This document shows positions 10,298 through 40,335 of a stretch of DNA of 45,712 nucleotides, in pieces (the stretch's first letter is position 1; each line of letters opens with the position of its first letter). The position numbers and the translations under genes were made by a program. The notes beneath the pieces were generated by a model, which was given only the letters and a program-made list of their open reading frames with translations, did no database searches and had not been told where the DNA came from. Source of the stretch: a virus; IMG/VR virus record IMGVR_UViG_3300020466_000008, positions 1 through 45,712 of that record. One strand, given 5' to 3'.

Positions 10298-10464
10298 CAG
10301 AGCTTAGGAGCAGGGAACAAACCGTTGCGAATAAACTCAACGGCTTTGTCATCAACTTCGTTATCAGTAGATTCTGCCAATTTAGTCAGCATGTCAACGA
10401 TAAGCATTTTAACTTTATCAGAGTTCAGAAAACTGAACAGGATTGGACGGATAAGGGTGATCAT
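10297..10464 (-). CDS. Small conserved-looking protein (55 aa)
   Basis: A 55-codon frame coupled on both sides: its ATG overlaps the oxygenase stop (ATGA), and its TGA overlaps the next ATG. It has an N-terminal hydrophobic segment (residues 2-13), then an amphipathic acidic helix. Function unknown. It looks like a small cyanophage protein I have seen next to the proline-rich gene. Confidence 0.65.
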   Translation of the reverse strand: MITLIRPILFSFLNSDKVKMLIVDMLTKLAESTDNEVDDKAVEFIRNGLFPAPKL

Positions 10465-11096
10465 TGTTTTAAAAAATAAAGGTTAAAACTGAGAATAATT
10501 CTATCTTTACCTGATTTATTAGGTTTAGTAGAATGAGGAAGGTAGGCTGGAAATAAAACCATCCTACCTGGTGTTGGTTCAACCCAAAAATTAATAGCTT
10601 TAGGCAGCTTAGGGTTGGGATTATTGTAATAATGAATAGACTGTTTAACCAACCATGCTGGATCTTCAAACTCAATATTACCGCATTCTTCTTCAGCTTT
10701 AACGTAGTAAACTCCAGAAACTGTTGAACCAGGATGTGTGTGTTTTGGAATAAACCCTTCTTCTGGGTAAATCGTTGTCCACATGTTTTCCATGCCTAGT
10801 TTATATTCAGAACCTAGAGTCTGTTCAGCTTGATCGAGAATGCTTATTACTACTTCTTTCCATTCTGGATTGGTAGCTAAATTGTCAGAATAATAAGAAG
10901 TAACTCCTTTACTTTTAAAATCTTCTTGTGAAGAAGACTTTTCAAAATCACTCCAACCGTCAGAAACGAGTCCAGCGTTAACAGCATTATCTCTAAACTT
11001 ATAAGCTAGAGAAGCAACTTTGTCGTTGAACTCGTTATCGTCACGGTTAGAAATCCAAAGTGGAGTAGAAAATAAATTGTGTTGAAAATCGTTCAT
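10461..11096 (-). CDS. 2-oxoglutarate/Fe(II)-dependent oxygenase
   Basis: A 211-residue protein with the double-stranded beta-helix signature of the phage 2OG-FeII_Oxy_5 group. The proximal iron ligands lie in His119-Thr-His121, followed by Ser-Gly-x-Tyr-Tyr; the distal His188 and 2OG-binding Arg199 sit in a Phe-Pro-x-x-Leu-x-His ... Arg-Ile context. Such enzymes hydroxylate proteins, nucleic acids or small molecules. In cyanophages they are common and the substrate is unknown. The gene lies between tail-adhesin genes and the lysis-type genes. Confidence 0.85.
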   Translation of the reverse strand: MNDFQHNLFSTPLWISNRDDNEFNDKVASLAYKFRDNAVNAGLVSDGWSDFEKSSSQEDFKSKGVTSYYSDNLATNPEWKEVVISILDQAEQTLGSEYKLGMENMWTTIYPEEGFIPKHTHPGSTVSGVYYVKAEEECGNIEFEDPAWLVKQSIHYYNNPNPKLPKAINFWVEPTPGRMVLFPAYLPHSTKPNKSGKDRIILSFNLYFLKQ

Positions 11097-11114: not shown

Positions 11115-11387
11115 TTATACAGCAGGAGGGGGAGACCCAGCAGGCATCATTGCAGCCGGGTTTTCTACGTCACCTCTAGCAAGCGCTGCAGCTGCATCAG
11201 GTGGGGAGCAATCCAACGGTGTTAAAGTAGAAGTTTCTACATCGTAGCCTGCACCTTCTTCGTAATCACCAGTAGGATCTTCATCAACTGAAGGGCATTC
11301 TACTACGGTAGAACCTTCAGGAAAAACAGCAGCACTAAGTGCCATTTCGGCAATTTTGCCGTCTACAATCATTGCGTAACGTTTCAT
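11115..11387 (-). CDS. Small protein after the adhesin (90 aa)
   Basis: The ATG at 11385-11387 overlaps the adhesin stop (ATGA). The N-terminal 30 residues look like a small beta fold, the rest is acidic and then Ala/Pro-rich. Tight coupling to the adhesin suggests a chaperone or accessory tail part. No family is recognised. Confidence 0.65.
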   Translation of the reverse strand: MKRYAMIVDGKIAEMALSAAVFPEGSTVVECPSVDEDPTGDYEEGAGYDVETSTLTPLDCSPPDAAAALARGDVENPAAMMPAGSPPPAV

Positions 11388-14284
11388 TCGTCGTACTTCC
11401 ATTCAATAAGAACATAACCTACACCACCGTCGCCACCGCGACCGTTGTAAGAGGAATAGCTGTGGTTGCCAGCACCACCGCCGCCTCCACCACCAATTCC
11501 ACCATGACCAGAGTGGAAGAAAGAACCACCTGATCCGCCGCCGCCAAGGGCGCCGCCCATACCACCGTATGCACCACGGTAGTAACGAGCATCATCGAGA
11601 GCAGAGTCCTTAACACGCCAGGCCAGGTTAGCTGGATCCCAAACGTGGTAAGTGCTTACATCATGAGTGTTACCAACACCCCAACAGGAGTAGGTCCAAG
11701 TAGCGCCACCGCCACCGCCGCCTGAGCCACCGCAGCCACCAGCATGAGCAACTGCCTCATTGGTAACATTATGACCTTGATCGACACTCTTACAGCCATG
11801 ACCAGCACCGCCGCCACCCCAAAGGCGTCCGAGAACACCATTGAAAGCTTTAGCTGGGAAAGTCACACCAGTAGCACGAGTTGCGGCAGGCTTATCGCCC
11901 AAATATTTCCGCATTTTATCTCTCAGTGTATTGGTATCATCAACACCGCCAACAGGTCCAGTTACTTCACCGTCACCGTAACGAGCACCGAAACTAACAG
12001 AGTGGTCAGCTACGTTACCAGGGCCAGCGGTATAATACATTCTTGCACTGTTTTGTCCACGAACATAATGAGTTTGTTTGTCATTAACGTAAGGTGCGAC
12101 AAAAGGATAATCAAAAGCACCAACACCACCTTCAGCAAACTGTGCGCCGCTGCCACCGTAAGGAGTACCAGACGTTTCACCACGACCACCGCTAATGCCA
12201 GGGCCGTAAGATCCACCGCCTGAGCCAGCACAACCATCATAGTAGTTTGTAGTTGTGTCGCTTGCGCGGGAGAATCCACCGCCACCGCCAATTCCAGCAC
12301 CACCTGGGTGAGGACTACTGTAGCCACCGCCACCGCCGTCTCCACCTTTGAAGCCGTTTCCAAACATAGAGCCAGCAGAACCGCCGCCTCCAGCTGGATA
12401 GTCTTCATTAGTAAAACCGTGGGCGTTTTGAGAACCGTAGCCACCTCGGCCACCAGCACTAGAGATAATAGTAGTGCTATCAATACCAGAACCAGAAGGA
12501 GATGCAGCAGAAGCTCCACCACCAGCATAAGTGGAGTAGTAACCTCCACCTTGGCCACCGTTAGCTGCGATGTTTACACCAGTACCAGTGACTTGAGTTG
12601 TACCACCGTTTCCACCGTAAACAACACCGGTATTACTCAGATAGTGTGCACCATAACCACCTTTACCAGTAGTAACAGTAAGAACAGTACCAGCAGTTAC
12701 AGTATATTCAGCAGAGGTAAATCCGCCACCGCCACCGCCGTGACCAGAGTAGTAGTTACTGTTGTAGTTACCACCACCGCCACCGCCGCCAACGCAAGTG
12801 ATGCGAACGCGGGTAACGTTATCAGGCACAGTCCAACTTGCAGTACCAGTGTTCGAGGGAATACGCCGAGAAACTAAAGGAGAATCAGCTTCTCCAAGAG
12901 GACGGCGTTGGTGATCAGTTGTATCATAACCAAGACCAGATTGAATACCGCTTGCACCGTATGCATACCAATCTTGCCAGTGAGTAAACTCACGGTTATT
13001 GACAATACCTGCACCCTGTTCTTGTTGAGGAGCAGCAGTACCCCATGATGGCACATAAGCCATGTCGTGTACGTTAATGACCAAGTTGTTAGTCATTGCG
13101 CTGTTACGGTTACCGATGTAAACCACGTCAGGTGTGGTTTCATTAGGAGTAAACGTAATAGTTTGAGTACTACCAGTAGTCCACACAACACCACTGTTAG
13201 TAGTGCTAGTAAATGCAGAGTTACCTTCTGCTGCAGTTACGGAGTCGTTTGCAGTAGAGTGTCCGCCAGCAGTAGTGTAAAGGTCATAGTTTTGACCATT
13301 AGACAGGTTGCTAGAGAAGGTAATAGTGTAGGATTTACCACGAGTAACATCAATAGTACCGTTACCAGTATTGCTACCTTGTGGATTAGTAGTATCAACC
13401 ACAGTAATGGTACCAAGCATACCAGCGTGTGAAGTACACTCATAGTAGTAAGTACCAGCAGCAACACCAGTCGTTACCCAAGTGACAGTACCAGCCGCAC
13501 CAGCACCAGTAAGAGTACCAGTTGTTACTTGAGCTCCACCAGCAGCAACACGAATGTCTAGCGGGTGAGCACCCATTGAATTATTAAAGACAAGAGTGTC
13601 TCCAATGTTTACAGTAATATTAGGGTCATGCTTTTTGGTAATTGCACCGTTACGATCAGAGCCAGTAATGATATAACTACCAGCTGCATAGCCGTTACCA
13701 GAACGTTGTGCGGTAACAGTCTGAGTATAGGTTTCCGCAGCAATACTGCCAGGTGTATTAAGTGACTTACCGTAATCACCGTCTTCTTCATAAGAGAAAG
13801 CGAGACTTGGATAAGTTTGTCGTGGTTGTTCTTGAACAGTCAGACCTTTGTTAACGGTCGGGTTAATAACAAGTTCGCTAGTAGCGTTCTCATTATTTCG
13901 GTACTCCATAGCACCGATGCTGTTCATAACGTTTCCAGCAGGAGCTGCTTGGAATAGACTCCATGGAGCAGAGCCAGGAGTTTGATTGGTCGAATCGTTT
14001 GCACCACTCAAAATATAGAGGTTTGAGTTGTGACGAACAATGTCGTAGCGATAATAAGTACTTGCACCAGCCCAGTCTCCATCTTCCCTGAAGTGGACAC
14101 CAGCTGCCATTAAATCCCACTGAGTAAGATTTGCAGAAGGAGCAGTAGCAGTAGCAGTGTGTGTAACCCTGCAAACAAATGAATGGTTGTCATAAAAAAC
14201 AACATCATCTACTTCGTAATCGGTAGAGGCTGACCAGTCACCCTGCCAATTAAATTTAAGTTTTCCGAGATCAATAAATGCCAT
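11384..14284 (-). CDS. Glycine-rich tail adhesin with cupredoxin-like and carbohydrate-binding-like domains
   Basis: A 966-residue virion protein with a modular build. Residues 14-60 and 68-111 are two repeats of a Trp-x-x-x-x-x-Tyr...Asp-x-Val pattern like CBM5/12 modules. Residues 218-297 look like a cupredoxin: His240, then Cys283, His286 and Met289 in a CxxHxxM loop, the full type 1 copper ligand set. Residues 305-405 resemble a second, degenerate copy without the ligands. From about residue 490 the protein is extremely Gly-rich (many runs of 4-7 Gly), like polyglycine-helix receptor-binding tips of phage adhesins. It follows the T7-type fibre gene with a one-base overlap, so it probably docks on the fibre and sets host range. 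Confidence 0.8.
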   Translation of the reverse strand: MAFIDLGKLKFNWQGDWSASTDYEVDDVVFYDNHSFVCRVTHTATATAPSANLTQWDLMAAGVHFREDGDWAGASTYYRYDIVRHNSNLYILSGANDSTNQTPGSAPWSLFQAAPAGNVMNSIGAMEYRNNENATSELVINPTVNKGLTVQEQPRQTYPSLAFSYEEDGDYGKSLNTPGSIAAETYTQTVTAQRSGNGYAAGSYIITGSDRNGAITKKHDPNITVNIGDTLVFNNSMGAHPLDIRVAAGGAQVTTGTLTGAGAAGTVTWVTTGVAAGTYYYECTSHAGMLGTITVVDTTNPQGSNTGNGTIDVTRGKSYTITFSSNLSNGQNYDLYTTAGGHSTANDSVTAAEGNSAFTSTTNSGVVWTTGSTQTITFTPNETTPDVVYIGNRNSAMTNNLVINVHDMAYVPSWGTAAPQQEQGAGIVNNREFTHWQDWYAYGASGIQSGLGYDTTDHQRRPLGEADSPLVSRRIPSNTGTASWTVPDNVTRVRITCVGGGGGGGNYNSNYYSGHGGGGGGFTSAEYTVTAGTVLTVTTGKGGYGAHYLSNTGVVYGGNGGTTQVTGTGVNIAANGGQGGGYYSTYAGGGASAASPSGSGIDSTTIISSAGGRGGYGSQNAHGFTNEDYPAGGGGSAGSMFGNGFKGGDGGGGGYSSPHPGGAGIGGGGGFSRASDTTTNYYDGCAGSGGGSYGPGISGGRGETSGTPYGGSGAQFAEGGVGAFDYPFVAPYVNDKQTHYVRGQNSARMYYTAGPGNVADHSVSFGARYGDGEVTGPVGGVDDTNTLRDKMRKYLGDKPAATRATGVTFPAKAFNGVLGRLWGGGGAGHGCKSVDQGHNVTNEAVAHAGGCGGSGGGGGGATWTYSCWGVGNTHDVSTYHVWDPANLAWRVKDSALDDARYYRGAYGGMGGALGGGGSGGSFFHSGHGGIGGGGGGGAGNHSYSSYNGRGGDGGVGYVLIEWKYDE

Positions 14285-15210
14285 TAGTCGTGTAGTTGTA
14301 TGTAAACGTGTCCAGAAGGTTGATACGCGAATTTAGGTTTACCAATGTCAGGTCCAGAAGTGTGGAGCAAACCATTGGTACCAAAGAAGCAGGTACCCTT
14401 GTCTTTGTAGTTGTAATTACTAGGATCATACACTGTTGCATTTTCAACAGACGTATTAAGGCTGTACTCAACTCTTAATGCGGTTCTGCCGTTTGCAACA
14501 TAGCGCCTGACTCCATAAAATACAGGGTCAACAGCGAAAGCAGCCGCAGTGTTTGCAAAGTTTTCAGCTGAATCACGTGCATCTTGTGAATCATCTCTTG
14601 CTTGTTCTGCGTAAGTTCGAGCTGTGACTGCTTGGTTTTTAGCCAACACAGCAGCATCTTTTGCATCACTAGCTGATTGCTGGTGACCGTCTGCAGTTGT
14701 TGCTGACGCAGCAGCAGCAGAAACAGAGTTTGCTAATTGTGTATCGTTATAGTTCTGGGATGCATCAACATAAGCTTTAGTTGCTGCAGCATTGGACGGG
14801 GTTGCAGATGTTGTTGGAGGTACAATAACAGTACCAGTAAACGTCACACCCTGCGAACCCACAGAACGTTCATTTAGTTCTTGACCTTGATACAGCACCT
14901 GAAGCTGGTTGTTGTTCAAGTCTTCAGCACGAATGGCTGATCCAGGTGCAAATGTAATGGTCGGCTCGTCAACTTGGGTTTCGCGACGCACAATGTACGT
15001 CTCTCCTTCCGCAAAGTTGCCGGCTATAATTTCAATGGATTGCCTAGTTTTAAATTGCCACTGGGCATCCGGTACGGGTGTGTTAGTGTCTGTACGGTAG
15101 ACTTTAATGTCGTTTTCGTCAAGCCACGCAAATGAGAAAGGAATCTCATAATTAACCGCAAGGTTAGTGCCGACGTTAATGACTTCTGTAGTTGAATACT
15201 GTAGTGTCAT
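14284..15210 (-). CDS. Tail fibre (T7 gp17 N-terminal domain)
   Basis: The first 130 residues match the T7 tail-fibre attachment domain: a beta-rich start, a Tyr-Ile-Val-Arg-Arg-Glu-Thr segment near 72-78 and the Arg-Ala-Glu-Asp-Leu-Asn motif near 93-98. Residues 135-225 form an Ala/Asp/Gln-rich coiled coil, and a short C-terminal domain follows. At 308 residues it is much shorter than T7 gp17 (553), so receptor binding is probably done by the adhesin encoded next. It starts 2 bases after the internal core gene. Confidence 0.88.
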   Translation of the reverse strand: MTLQYSTTEVINVGTNLAVNYEIPFSFAWLDENDIKVYRTDTNTPVPDAQWQFKTRQSIEIIAGNFAEGETYIVRRETQVDEPTITFAPGSAIRAEDLNNNQLQVLYQGQELNERSVGSQGVTFTGTVIVPPTTSATPSNAAATKAYVDASQNYNDTQLANSVSAAAASATTADGHQQSASDAKDAAVLAKNQAVTARTYAEQARDDSQDARDSAENFANTAAAFAVDPVFYGVRRYVANGRTALRVEYSLNTSVENATVYDPSNYNYKDKGTCFFGTNGLLHTSGPDIGKPKFAYQPSGHVYIQLHD

Positions 15211-30793: not shown

Positions 30794-30963
30794 TACCAGA
30801 ATCCTGGAATAAGTTGACCGGTTACAGCATAGGAGCCGATCGCAGCGATGACTCCCAGCATAGCTAGGCGCCCGTTAAGGCGCTCAGCTTTTTCGTTATG
30901 TGGGACTGAGTTTTCGTCGATGTACATGCGGGGTTCAGTAGGCCAAATTTGTGTGTCGTTCAT
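30793..30963 (-). CDS. hli: High-light-inducible protein (Hli)
   Basis: A 56-residue protein with the Hli signature: Ala-Glu-Arg-x-Asn-Gly-Arg-x-Ala-Met-x-Gly at residues 27-38, then one membrane helix (to about 50) ending in Pro-Gly-Phe-Trp. Hli proteins bind chlorophyll and carotenoid and protect photosystem II under light stress. The start shares one base with the psbA stop (TAATG), so both are made from one mRNA during infection. Confidence 0.92.
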   Translation of the reverse strand: MNDTQIWPTEPRMYIDENSVPHNEKAERLNGRLAMLGVIAAIGSYAVTGQLIPGFW

Positions 30964-32042
30964 TAAGCAATAGCGGGTGCAGTGAGAGCAATGGGAGTGG
31001 ACTCAGCAGCTGCCAAGTCAAGAGGGAAGTTGTGAGCATTACGTTCATGCATCACCTCCATCCCCAAACCTTGACGGTTCAGAATGTCAGCCCAAGTAGG
31101 AATGACACGGTTAGAACTGTCAATGATAGATTGATTAAAGTTGAATCCATTTAGATTGAATGCCATAGTGCTTACCCCCAAAGAAGTAAACCAAATACCA
31201 ACAACTGGCCAAGCAGCAAGAAAGAAATGCAGACTGCGTGAGTTGTTGAAGCTGGCGTATTGAAAAATGAGTCTACCAAAGTAACCATGAGCTGCTACAA
31301 TATTGTACGTTTCTTCTTCCTGGCCAAACTTGTAGCCTTGGTTCTGACTAACTGTTTCAGTAGTCTCACGAACCAGAGAAGAAGTAACAAGACTACCATG
31401 CATGGCGCTAAACAAACTGCCGCCAAAAACACCAGCGACCCCAAGCATATGGAAAGGGTGCATAAGAATGTTATGCTCAGCTTGAAATACCAGCATGTAG
31501 TTGAAGGTACCCGAGATTCCCAGCGGCATTCCATCAGAGAAGCTGCCTTGTCCAAAAGGATAGACAAGGAATACAGCTGTTGCAGCAGCAACTGGTGCGG
31601 AGTATGCGACAAAGATCCAGGGCCTCATCCCAAGTCGGTAACTAAGTTCCCATTCGCGTCCCATATAAGCGAAGACGCCAAGGAGAAAGTGGAAGACAAC
31701 AAGCTGGTATGGTCCTCCGTTGTAGAGCCATTCACTAAGTGAGTTGGCTTCCCAGATGGGGTAAAAGTGGAGCCCGATTGCGTTACTAGAGGGTACGACG
31801 GCTCCTGAAATGATGTTGTTTCCATAGAGGAGTGCTCCTGAAACTGGTTCTCTAATTCCATCGATGTCTACTGGAGGTGCAGCGATAAACGCAATGATAA
31901 AACAGGTAGTTGCGGCAAGCAACGCGGGGATCATCAAGACCCCGAAGTGTCCAACGTAAAGTCGGTTGTCAGTACTTGTCACCCAGTTGAGATAGTTATC
32001 CCACAGTGATGACTGCTGACGTGTAGCAATAGTAGCAGCCAT
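30963..32042 (-). CDS. psbA: Photosystem II D1 protein
   Basis: The reaction-centre protein D1, 359 residues and full length. Key residues are in place: Tyr161 (TyrZ), Asp170 and the C-terminal Asp342/Ala344 of the Mn cluster, His190 and His198. Residue 130 is Glu, the form found in high-light D1 isoforms. A 15-residue extension after Ala344 would be removed by CtpA. Five membrane helices are expected in the host thylakoid. Phage D1 replaces damaged host D1 and keeps photosynthesis running. It sits 11 bases after the scaffold gene and heads a cassette with hli and small basic genes. No own promoter is evident. Confidence 0.98.
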
Positions 32043-38590: not shown

Positions 38591-39862
38591 TTAGTGTACC
38601 TCTGCCCAATTTACACCAATTTTGCCTTCGGCTGCAATAGGACAGCGTATGTTGTAGAACTCTCCAGCAAGTGTAGCGGATAGTTCCAGAGCAAATTTAA
38701 GTTCATCGGCTTGAGGTGGGTGGCATTCATATTGCAATTCGTCATGTACAAACGCTAGTTGCGATGCACACAAGTTTGTTTCTTTAACAGTGTCGTTAGC
38801 TATGACTAACCATTTCTTCGCCAAAGATGCGCTAGACCCTTGTAGTAGAAAGTTGAGTGCTTTATGCGGTGAGTCAACGTTAAGTCGTCTTCCATCAATC
38901 GCGTTAACATAGCCACGATCAGCCGCAGTTTGAACAGCAGCAAGTAGGTCAGCAAGACCCGGAATGGCTTCGATATAAGCCTTGCGAATCTCTTTGCCTT
39001 TTGCTTTAGCCTGTGAAGGGGGGAGTTGCTTGTCATAGCTTAATCCAATTTTAATGTCTCCAGCGCCGTAGAGGAAGGCGTAAGTAACTGTTTTGACGAG
39101 TTTCCTACTGATTCCAATTTTGTCTGCATTGGTTTGATGTATGTCGCCGGTGAGGAGAATGTGTGCATAACGACCCTCATCGTAGCGATGAAGATAATGG
39201 GAGAGCATACGAAGCTCAATACCAGCAAGGTCCGCACCCACCAGTATTTGTCCGGGCGTGGCGGTAAATAATTGTCTAAATCGTTCGTCACTAGGCGTCT
39301 GCGCAAGGTTTGGGTTTCGGTGGGCACAACGGCCCGTGTTAGTAGCTACACTACAATGGTGGTGGATGCGTTTAGATCTCGTAACAAGCTTCAGCCAGGC
39401 GTTCTTCCCTTCGGAGAGCATCCCTAACATCTTCGTAATCTCCAGCATCCTCAAGAACGAGAGCGCCAGGTCGGTTCCAATATCCTTCAAAGATGTTTCG
39501 TCTACGATAGGCTTCCCAGTAGCTGTCAAAGCGGTGGGGATCCATCCGCTGTGTGTCTTCAATATCCATGCTATGTGGTCCCGTGATGTGGGGTTAAACT
39601 CCTTCAGTCGTGTAAATTCGGCACCTGCGATGTAGCCTTTGCTTTTGTTATCTCGCTTAGGAGTGAATCTCTGTCCTGGGACGAGAGGGTACCGCTTTCG
39701 TAGTAGTGAATCAATGTTTTCAAGTTCAGTTCGGAGAGCTGATGCAAGTTCCCATGCAGCTCGTTCATCAAAATACCATCCATGTTGTTCCTGTGCAGTT
39801 AATATAGTAGCTACTTGGTGCTCCATTTGGAGCCAGTCAGGTAGGGGAGGAAATGCTTCCAT
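38591..39862 (-). CDS. DNA polymerase, polymerase domain (family A, T7 gp5-like)
   Basis: The thumb, palm and fingers of a T7-type DNA polymerase (423 residues). Motif A reads Ala-Asp-Leu-Ala-Gly-x-Glu-Leu-Arg, motif B Lys-Thr-Val-x-Tyr-x-Phe-Leu-Tyr-Gly-Ala-Gly, motif C Val-His-Asp-Glu. The exonuclease domain is in a separate frame upstream, overlapping by 52 bases. Adding one C to a C4 run (39844-39847) would fuse both into a single protein of about 590 residues with a natural linker, so the split is either real or a one-base assembly error. Confidence 0.93.
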   Translation of the reverse strand: MEAFPPLPDWLQMEHQVATILTAQEQHGWYFDERAAWELASALRTELENIDSLLRKRYPLVPGQRFTPKRDNKSKGYIAGAEFTRLKEFNPTSRDHIAWILKTHSGWIPTALTATGKPIVDETSLKDIGTDLALSFLRMLEITKMLGMLSEGKNAWLKLVTRSKRIHHHCSVATNTGRCAHRNPNLAQTPSDERFRQLFTATPGQILVGADLAGIELRMLSHYLHRYDEGRYAHILLTGDIHQTNADKIGISRKLVKTVTYAFLYGAGDIKIGLSYDKQLPPSQAKAKGKEIRKAYIEAIPGLADLLAAVQTAADRGYVNAIDGRRLNVDSPHKALNFLLQGSSASLAKKWLVIANDTVKETNLCASQLAFVHDELQYECHPPQADELKFALELSATLAGEFYNIRCPIAAEGKIGVNWAEVH

Positions 39863-40335
39863 AATTTACGTGTTACAACAACGTCTTGTGCCATATAATC
39901 TTCCATCTCTTGACTCCATGAATCCCACGCTGTTTCGATCTCAGCCTTATGTTCACCCAGGCGGTAACCGTAGGCTTTGAGACTGTGTGATCCGTACAGT
40001 TTAGCAGGCATGTCAAGCCATTTGCGTTTCTTATCAATGTCTAATAGATTAGCGTGATACACGTGAGACAGGATAAGAGTGTCAACTGCTTGACCTTTAA
40101 AGTCAAAGAATGGGTAGCATTTCTTAAGAGCCGGTAAATCGTAGTTAATAATGTTATGGCCGACCACATGTTCTGCTTCTTCAAGCATTGTGACAGCCCT
40201 TGTTATCGGTTCACCGGTTCCAACGTCGTTAAAGATTGAAGTCTGATCATTATCTATATCATAGATACAGACACAGTGAATAGAGCTTACATCTTTCAAA
40301 AGGCCATTAGCCTCAACGTCAAATACTAGGTTCAT
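39811..40335 (-). CDS. DNA polymerase, 3'-5' exonuclease domain
   Basis: A 174-residue DEDD proofreading domain: Asp6-x-Glu8 (ExoI), an Asn-x-x-x-Tyr-Asp-Leu-Pro element (ExoII) near 61-68, and Tyr-Met-Ala-Gln-Asp (ExoIII) near 148-152. The last residues after Phe-Leu-Pro (about 163) run on in a frame that stops 11 codons later, while the polymerase frame continues the expected linker. The start overlaps the previous small gene by 17 bases. Confidence 0.92.
   Translation of the reverse strand: MNLVFDVEANGLLKDVSSIHCVCIYDIDNDQTSIFNDVGTGEPITRAVTMLEEAEHVVGHNIINYDLPALKKCYPFFDFKGQAVDTLILSHVYHANLLDIDKKRKWLDMPAKLYGSHSLKAYGYRLGEHKAEIETAWDSWSQEMEDYMAQDVVVTRKLWKHFLPYLTGSKWSTK

Follow-up and report, generated by a model that had tools for sequence, protein, structure and literature searches.

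Plastocyanin and amicyanin are the described cupredoxins closest to the domain that we discuss here, and in both of them an asparagine usually follows the first histidine ligand of the copper site (H-N). Plastocyanin proper is a known phage-encoded gene (PMC3037559, PMC2984593). On the side of the particle, PMC3037559 reports 41 proteins detected in virions of phage S-SM1. In open-access papers we found no description of a cupredoxin or plastocyanin as a part of a phage tail.

The window, by which we mean the whole stretch of DNA analyzed, is a virus record 45,712 bases long. It encodes a T7-type RNA polymerase, a DNA polymerase, a head-tail adaptor and internal virion proteins, together with psbA, the gene for the photosystem II D1 protein (30963-32042, minus strand), flanked by structural genes as is usual in marine cyanophages. 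The terminase is 82-83% identical to those of the cyanopodoviruses S-RIP2 and KBS-P-1A and 81% identical to that of P-GSP1. Taken together, psbA, the T7-type gene set and the terminase identities identify the virus as a marine T7-like cyanopodovirus. Its DNA polymerase is encoded by two overlapping ORFs in different frames (38591-39862 and 39811-40335, minus strand), both of which match DNA polymerase families; this is either a split gene or a frameshift.

The ORF listing and translation place a tail adhesin, or distal fibre protein, of 966 residues at 11384..14284 on the minus strand. It lies directly after a gene (14284..15210, minus strand) for a protein of 308 residues whose T7 tail-fibre N-terminal domain anchors the fibre to the virion (PF03906, E 8.6e-9; T7 gp17 and the P-SCSP1u fibre in the PDB). 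The same order is seen in L002-L004 and in the more distant L026, and we infer that the anchor protein is the attachment partner of the adhesin. Near its N-terminus the adhesin carries a CBM_5_12 carbohydrate-binding module at residues 17-56 (14117..14236, minus strand; PF02839, 31.9 bits, two stretches in the protein). Its C-terminal region, residues 479-966 (11387..12850, minus strand), is glycine-rich, with nine runs of 4-7 glycines and a match to Gly_rich_2 at residues 479-702 (PF21722, 40.7 bits), and is the presumed receptor-binding tip. The neighbouring PF03906 protein, the combination of CBM_5_12 with Gly_rich_2 and the exchange of the tip in L026 are features of the distal fibres or adhesins of T7-like podoviruses. 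Close downstream of the adhesin is a 2OG-Fe(II) oxygenase gene (10461-11096, minus strand), which is 99-100% identical in L002 and L004.

Between these modules, residues 204-297 of the adhesin (13394..13675, minus strand) form a cupredoxin domain with a full type 1 ligand set, recognized by Pfam, PDB and family-profile searches and by structure modelling. The four ligand codons were read directly from the DNA, all on the minus strand: His240 (CAC, 13565..13567), Cys283 (TGT, 13436..13438), His286 in C-x2-H spacing (CAC, 13427..13429) and the axial Met289 in the H-x2-M spacing of amicyanin (ATG, 13418..13420). The arrangement is that of the cupredoxin superfamily, with a histidine in a middle loop and Cys-x(2-4)-His-x(2-4)-Met in the last loop. 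The initial annotation had proposed a cupredoxin-like domain with a complete His-Cys-His-Met set in a tail adhesin, and the PF00127 match, the PDB relatives, the codons and the confident model all bear this out; its residue numbers and its C-x2-H-x2-M loop, which is of amicyanin type, were also correct. The profile match covers about 204-295, a slightly wider extent at the N-terminus than the proposed 218-297.

The Pfam match to PF00127 (Copper-bind, residues 221-295) is a marginal pass: the cut-off is 21.2 bits, and the whole protein scores 21.3 and the excised domain 24.3. When the excised domain was searched alone against the PDB, Prochlorothrix plastocyanin (1b3i) was found at E 1e-5 and amicyanin at about 2e-4; with a 17-sequence family profile, amicyanin was reached at 4.7e-8. 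Profiles that were built from relatives of quite different origin also recognize the domain, the Bacteroidota-only profile of cellular copies at 69.2 bits (E 4e-19), which is far beyond chance, and the gp9-only profile at 40.2 bits (E 4e-10). Residues 204-295 are thus confirmed as a true cupredoxin domain, one whose sequence suggests that it works like a cupredoxin and that belongs marginally to PF00127. Because proline replaces the usual asparagine after the first histidine ligand, we propose to call the grouping HP-type. Its two signatures, H-P-[FLMI] and Y-x-C-x2-H-x2-M near the C-terminus, read HPL and YECTSHAGM in the window. The proline in that position counts against the reading as a copper site. 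As another assignment, the At5g54830-like family PF25489 was rejected; it gave low E-values in 8 of 17 members, but members checked singly scored 14.6-15.7 bits against a cut-off of 27.

An AlphaFold2 model of residues 200-299, made with 87 family sequences, has nine strands and high confidence (pLDDT 95.1, pTM 0.88). In the numbering of the model, His41 is placed in the loop that joins strands 31-36 and 43-46, Cys84 (Cys283 of the adhesin) is the last residue of strand 78-84, and His87 and Met90 occupy the loop preceding strand 91-97. The modelled layout is the cupredoxin order of strands and ligands, with a loop of amicyanin length. In a Foldseek search of the PDB the first 21 matches were all copper proteins at probability 1.0, led by amicyanin, plastocyanin, the Nitrosopumilus purple cupredoxin and the three-domain copper nitrite reductase. 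Against this, the TM-scores were modest (0.41-0.59) and the E-values about 1e-3, with none passing 0.001, and immunoglobulin domains appeared further down the list at similar TM. Among predicted viral structures the best matches were cyanophage S8 peptidases (TM 0.92 and 0.90), followed by a MED4-213 protein (0.88), the P-SSM2 proximal tail fibre (0.84) and S-H34 gp9 (0.82). A two-domain model of residues 196-410 was discarded for fold assignment, its second domain being of low confidence and Foldseek returning generic tandem Ig proteins. In the sources searched we found no metal, spectrum or solved structure for any HP-type member, and no solved cyanophage gp9 or adhesin with the domain.

The HP-type cupredoxin is a recurrent module of cyanophage tails. 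With the window domain as the tblastn query, 13 phage records matched at E 1e-5, a number that rose to 207 at E 1; with a gp9 copy as the query, the matches at E 0.01 came to at least 356 out of 50,697 records. By name, 347 of these 356 are Synechococcus phages, Prochlorococcus phages or cyanophages, 6 are "Marine", 2 are Pelagibacter phages and 1 is an Actinomycetia phage. An IMG/VR scan with one degenerate pattern gave at least 496 relatives, and plasmids, when searched for the domain, gave no match. In phages the domain is most often found at the C-terminal end of gp9, the baseplate wedge-tail fibre connector. Other carriers are proximal tail fibres, subtilases, RCC1-like and LamG-like repeat proteins and glycine-rich proteins, and the domain sometimes occurs in tandem. 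In the isolated podoviruses P-GSP1 and P-SCSP2, which are related to the window, it is found near the N-terminus of a protein of the tail-fibre region. The nearest relatives of the window domain are marine phage tail proteins, at 51-54% identity, and PHROG 677 and PHROG 9158 include the domain under annotations that do not mention copper. The initial annotation had called a copper protein on a phage tail unexpected. As a module of cyanophage tails the domain is commonplace, and in this respect more general than was then thought; the surprise stands insofar as we found no description of it as a copper protein in open-access papers.

Several of these loci have features of their own. In the cyanomyoviruses L015-L022 the ORF after gp9 contains a second copy that has diverged further (HP[MI]RF ... 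CxxHxxM), and behind it a ligand-free one. Viral subtilases (S8), from cyanophages and other viruses, also carry the copper-site domain (L009 2246-4294, L148 752-2758 and L083), at the C-terminus in the L009 and L148 proteins, so that protease and cupredoxin are paired in virion gene neighbourhoods. In Synechococcus phage S-SCSM2R (L146 2264-2770), a 168-residue protein named PetE, that is, plastocyanin, has an HP-type domain and adjoins a peptidase S8 gene; the PetE label is probably a misannotation.

The domain is also found in cells. A scan of cell genomes in GTDB (84,980 species) with one pattern, which detects AGTYYY(Q/E)C-type copies only, returned 41 loci, nearly all in marine Bacteroidota, and no cyanobacterial genome among the species scanned matched that pattern. 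In a sample of the phylum Bacteroidota the domain was present in 6 of 296 genomes at E 1e-12. Some cellular copies are stand-alone proteins of 124-151 residues with a hydrophobic or lipoprotein-type N-terminus, and others make up the C-terminal domain of large proteins of the cell surface. The secreted proteins of marine Bacteroidota are about 45-48% identical to the window domain. At the loci inspected, contigs of up to 1.86 Mb and ordinary bacterial neighbours indicate that the Bacteroidota copies are cellular. For example, a Marinoscillum MAG (L128 4869-5759) has two adjacent stand-alone, lipoprotein-like HP-type cupredoxins. A contig filed under a Euryarchaeota MAG (L135) encodes a 1236-residue protein that resembles phage proteins (L041), and is probably a misbinned phage.

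How the four ligands vary within this family bears directly on function. In an 87-row alignment of sequences 32-96% identical to the window domain, His240, Pro241, Cys283 and His286 never vary, and Met289 is conserved in at least 90%. Of the distinct viral copies, 148 have all four columns present; the full set of ligands survives in 125 of these, three ligands in 6, two in none, a single one in 11 and not one in 6. If ligands were lost independently, about 94, 45, 8, 0.6 and 0 would be expected, an expectation that is a guide only, related sequences not being independent. Under a stricter profile (n=132) the corresponding counts are 121, 4, 0, 5 and 2. All four ligands are present in 36 of 37 cellular copies and also in copies less than 45% identical, and free variation of the four residues, which the initial annotation had regarded as an argument against a copper site, was not seen. 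Glutamine is the axial ligand of stellacyanins, and in 2 of the 6 three-ligand viral copies the methionine is replaced by glutamine. The IMG/VR pattern needed the cysteine in the seed copy, which inflates the proportion of intact sites. This bias and kinship nevertheless leave the empty middle class unexplained, because partly degenerate copies would be easier to detect than fully degenerate ones. Such all-or-none behaviour of the ligands speaks for a working copper site, with some copies retired, and is the strongest evidence that the site works as a unit. In one record, L006, the cysteine is missing; compared with L005, this reads like a local sequence error.

A retired copy is probably present in the adhesin itself. 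Residues 303-403 (13076..13378, minus strand) appear to be a degenerate, ligand-free cupredoxin, recognized weakly by the family profile (9.8 bits) and by hhalign (61% probability) and modelled with low confidence. The related podovirus L026 has the same pair, an intact domain and then a ligand-free one that is 48% identical to its counterpart in the window, and the same gene order of internal virion protein, fibre anchor and adhesin. The first 418 residues of the L026 adhesin are 49% identical to those of the window, and the C-terminus is unrelated. From this comparison the conserved part comprises the carbohydrate-binding modules, the copper domain and the degenerate domain, and the tip is exchangeable, which makes the copper domain a module of the shaft. 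The choice of receptor therefore probably lies outside the copper domain, and, to judge from the ligand-free domain next to it, the fold as such does not seem to depend on metal.

We consider it likely that the adhesin domain is a cupredoxin with a type 1-like His-Cys-His-Met copper site in the fibre shaft, where the copper acts at the interface between virion and cell. The parts of this reading deserve separate weights. That the domain binds copper is very probable, because the ligand set, its all-or-none conservation and the existence of stand-alone members agree on this point. Selection for a copper function at the site, that is, for a role beyond scaffolding, is only slightly less probable, because ligand-free copies keep the scaffold role in the same fibres. 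The domain would hold one copper ion and would be built into a modular shaft between the carbohydrate-binding modules and the exchangeable receptor-binding tip; the fibre would be assembled, released to sea water and then loaded with copper, and the bound ion would carry out chemistry at the virion-cell interface instead of merely filling space. What that chemistry might be is a matter of guesswork. Our tentative preference is a copper-gated or redox-switched contact with the cell surface, and a static role of the metal is about as likely. A wider version, in which cyanophage tails carry working type 1 centres (in gp9 of myoviruses and the fibre shaft of podoviruses) and the redox state set at the sunlit host surface gates the contact between fibre and envelope, is a long shot. 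If it were true, such a virion-borne redox switch could, speculatively, bear on the light-dependent adsorption of several cyanophages. Light-dependent adsorption is reported for several marine cyanomyoviruses (PMC2984593), and PMC9229316 cites Jia et al. 2010 for it in cyanophages.

The static role would have copper, or another soft metal, do no more than stiffen the beta-sandwich, protect the fibre in sea water and take the place of a disulphide, with no redox part to play. This possibility agrees with the position of the domain as a shaft module, tandem in places, and with the lack of a known partner protein. It also agrees with the single cysteine in the domain, because of which an intradomain disulphide is impossible. 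However, the fold persists in degenerate copies of the same fibres that have lost the ligands, the solved apo-plastocyanin (2pcy, among the Foldseek matches) folds without copper, and the axial methionine is retained although a simple lock would not need it.

Another potential reason for the persistence of the ligands is recent descent, the domain being an Ig-like beta-sandwich spacer that binds no metal in nature. Clear ligand-free members of the family do exist, and the domain turns up in varied contexts among fibre and LamG-type proteins. We regard this as unlikely, since copies less than 45% identical still have all four ligands, stand-alone cellular members retain them too, and ligands are lost three or four together, as would be expected only when a working site is abandoned. 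The initial annotation had also suggested capture of a host photosynthesis gene, which would here mean a cyanobacterial petE taken up to contact the photosynthetic electron chain; despite psbA in the genome, the cyanophage relatives and the phage-encoded plastocyanins noted above (PMC3037559, PMC2984593), a recent capture is hardly credible, because the nearest proteins are those of phage tails and Bacteroidota (45-54% identity for marine phage and Bacteroidota copies, against about 24-33% for solved plastocyanins), the plastocyanin of phage S-WAM1 matches the domain model at TM 0.45 against 0.82-0.92 for virion proteins, the NCBIfam plastocyanin score of 17.5 bits misses the cut-off of 87.85 widely, the one-pattern GTDB scan had no cyanobacterial match, and a tail fibre acts outside the cell whereas plastocyanin resides in the thylakoid lumen.

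A site that acts through its copper, which we prefer, would have consequences beyond this one fibre. In the sunlit ocean cyanophages rank with the most abundant viruses, and hundreds of their genomes encode the domain; copper probably plays a part, so far unstudied, on cyanophage particles. Should copper be bound, it and its redox chemistry would become factors in how phages adsorb, how stable they are and how copper cycles in the sea. The HP-type family also connects proteins of the virion with a family that marine Bacteroidota secrete, and it accounts for at least one probable misannotation, that of the 168-residue virion-type protein named PetE.

Among known systems, amicyanin (PDB 1aac, 1sf3; TIGR02657) is the top solved relative by both profile (4.7e-8) and fold, and shares with the window domain the C-x2-H-x2-M loop and the order of strands and ligands. 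The two differ in that amicyanin is the soluble periplasmic partner of methylamine dehydrogenase, whereas the window domain is part of a putative virion protein, and in that the domain scores 21.6 bits against the amicyanin equivalog cut-off of 110.2. Plastocyanin (PF00127, TIGR02656) has the fold class and the four ligands in common with the domain, but the TIGR02656 score is 17.5 bits against 87.85, the ligand loop of the domain is two residues shorter, and solved plastocyanins align at about 24-33%. After the first ligand the window domain has H-P, in contrast to H-N in both amicyanin and plastocyanin. By the NCBIfam cut-offs, the domain classes as neither of the two. Closer in kind is the gp9 of cyanomyoviruses (PHROG 677), whose C-terminal HP-type domain has all four ligands; there it caps a T4 gp9/10-like protein (PF07880), whereas the window copy sits in a podovirus fibre. 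The secreted HP-type cupredoxins of marine Bacteroidota (L128, L132, L137) have the same domain as the window but are not virion proteins. The HP-type is a cupredoxin subfamily that serves as a virion tail module and is common to marine phages and to secreted proteins of Bacteroidota.
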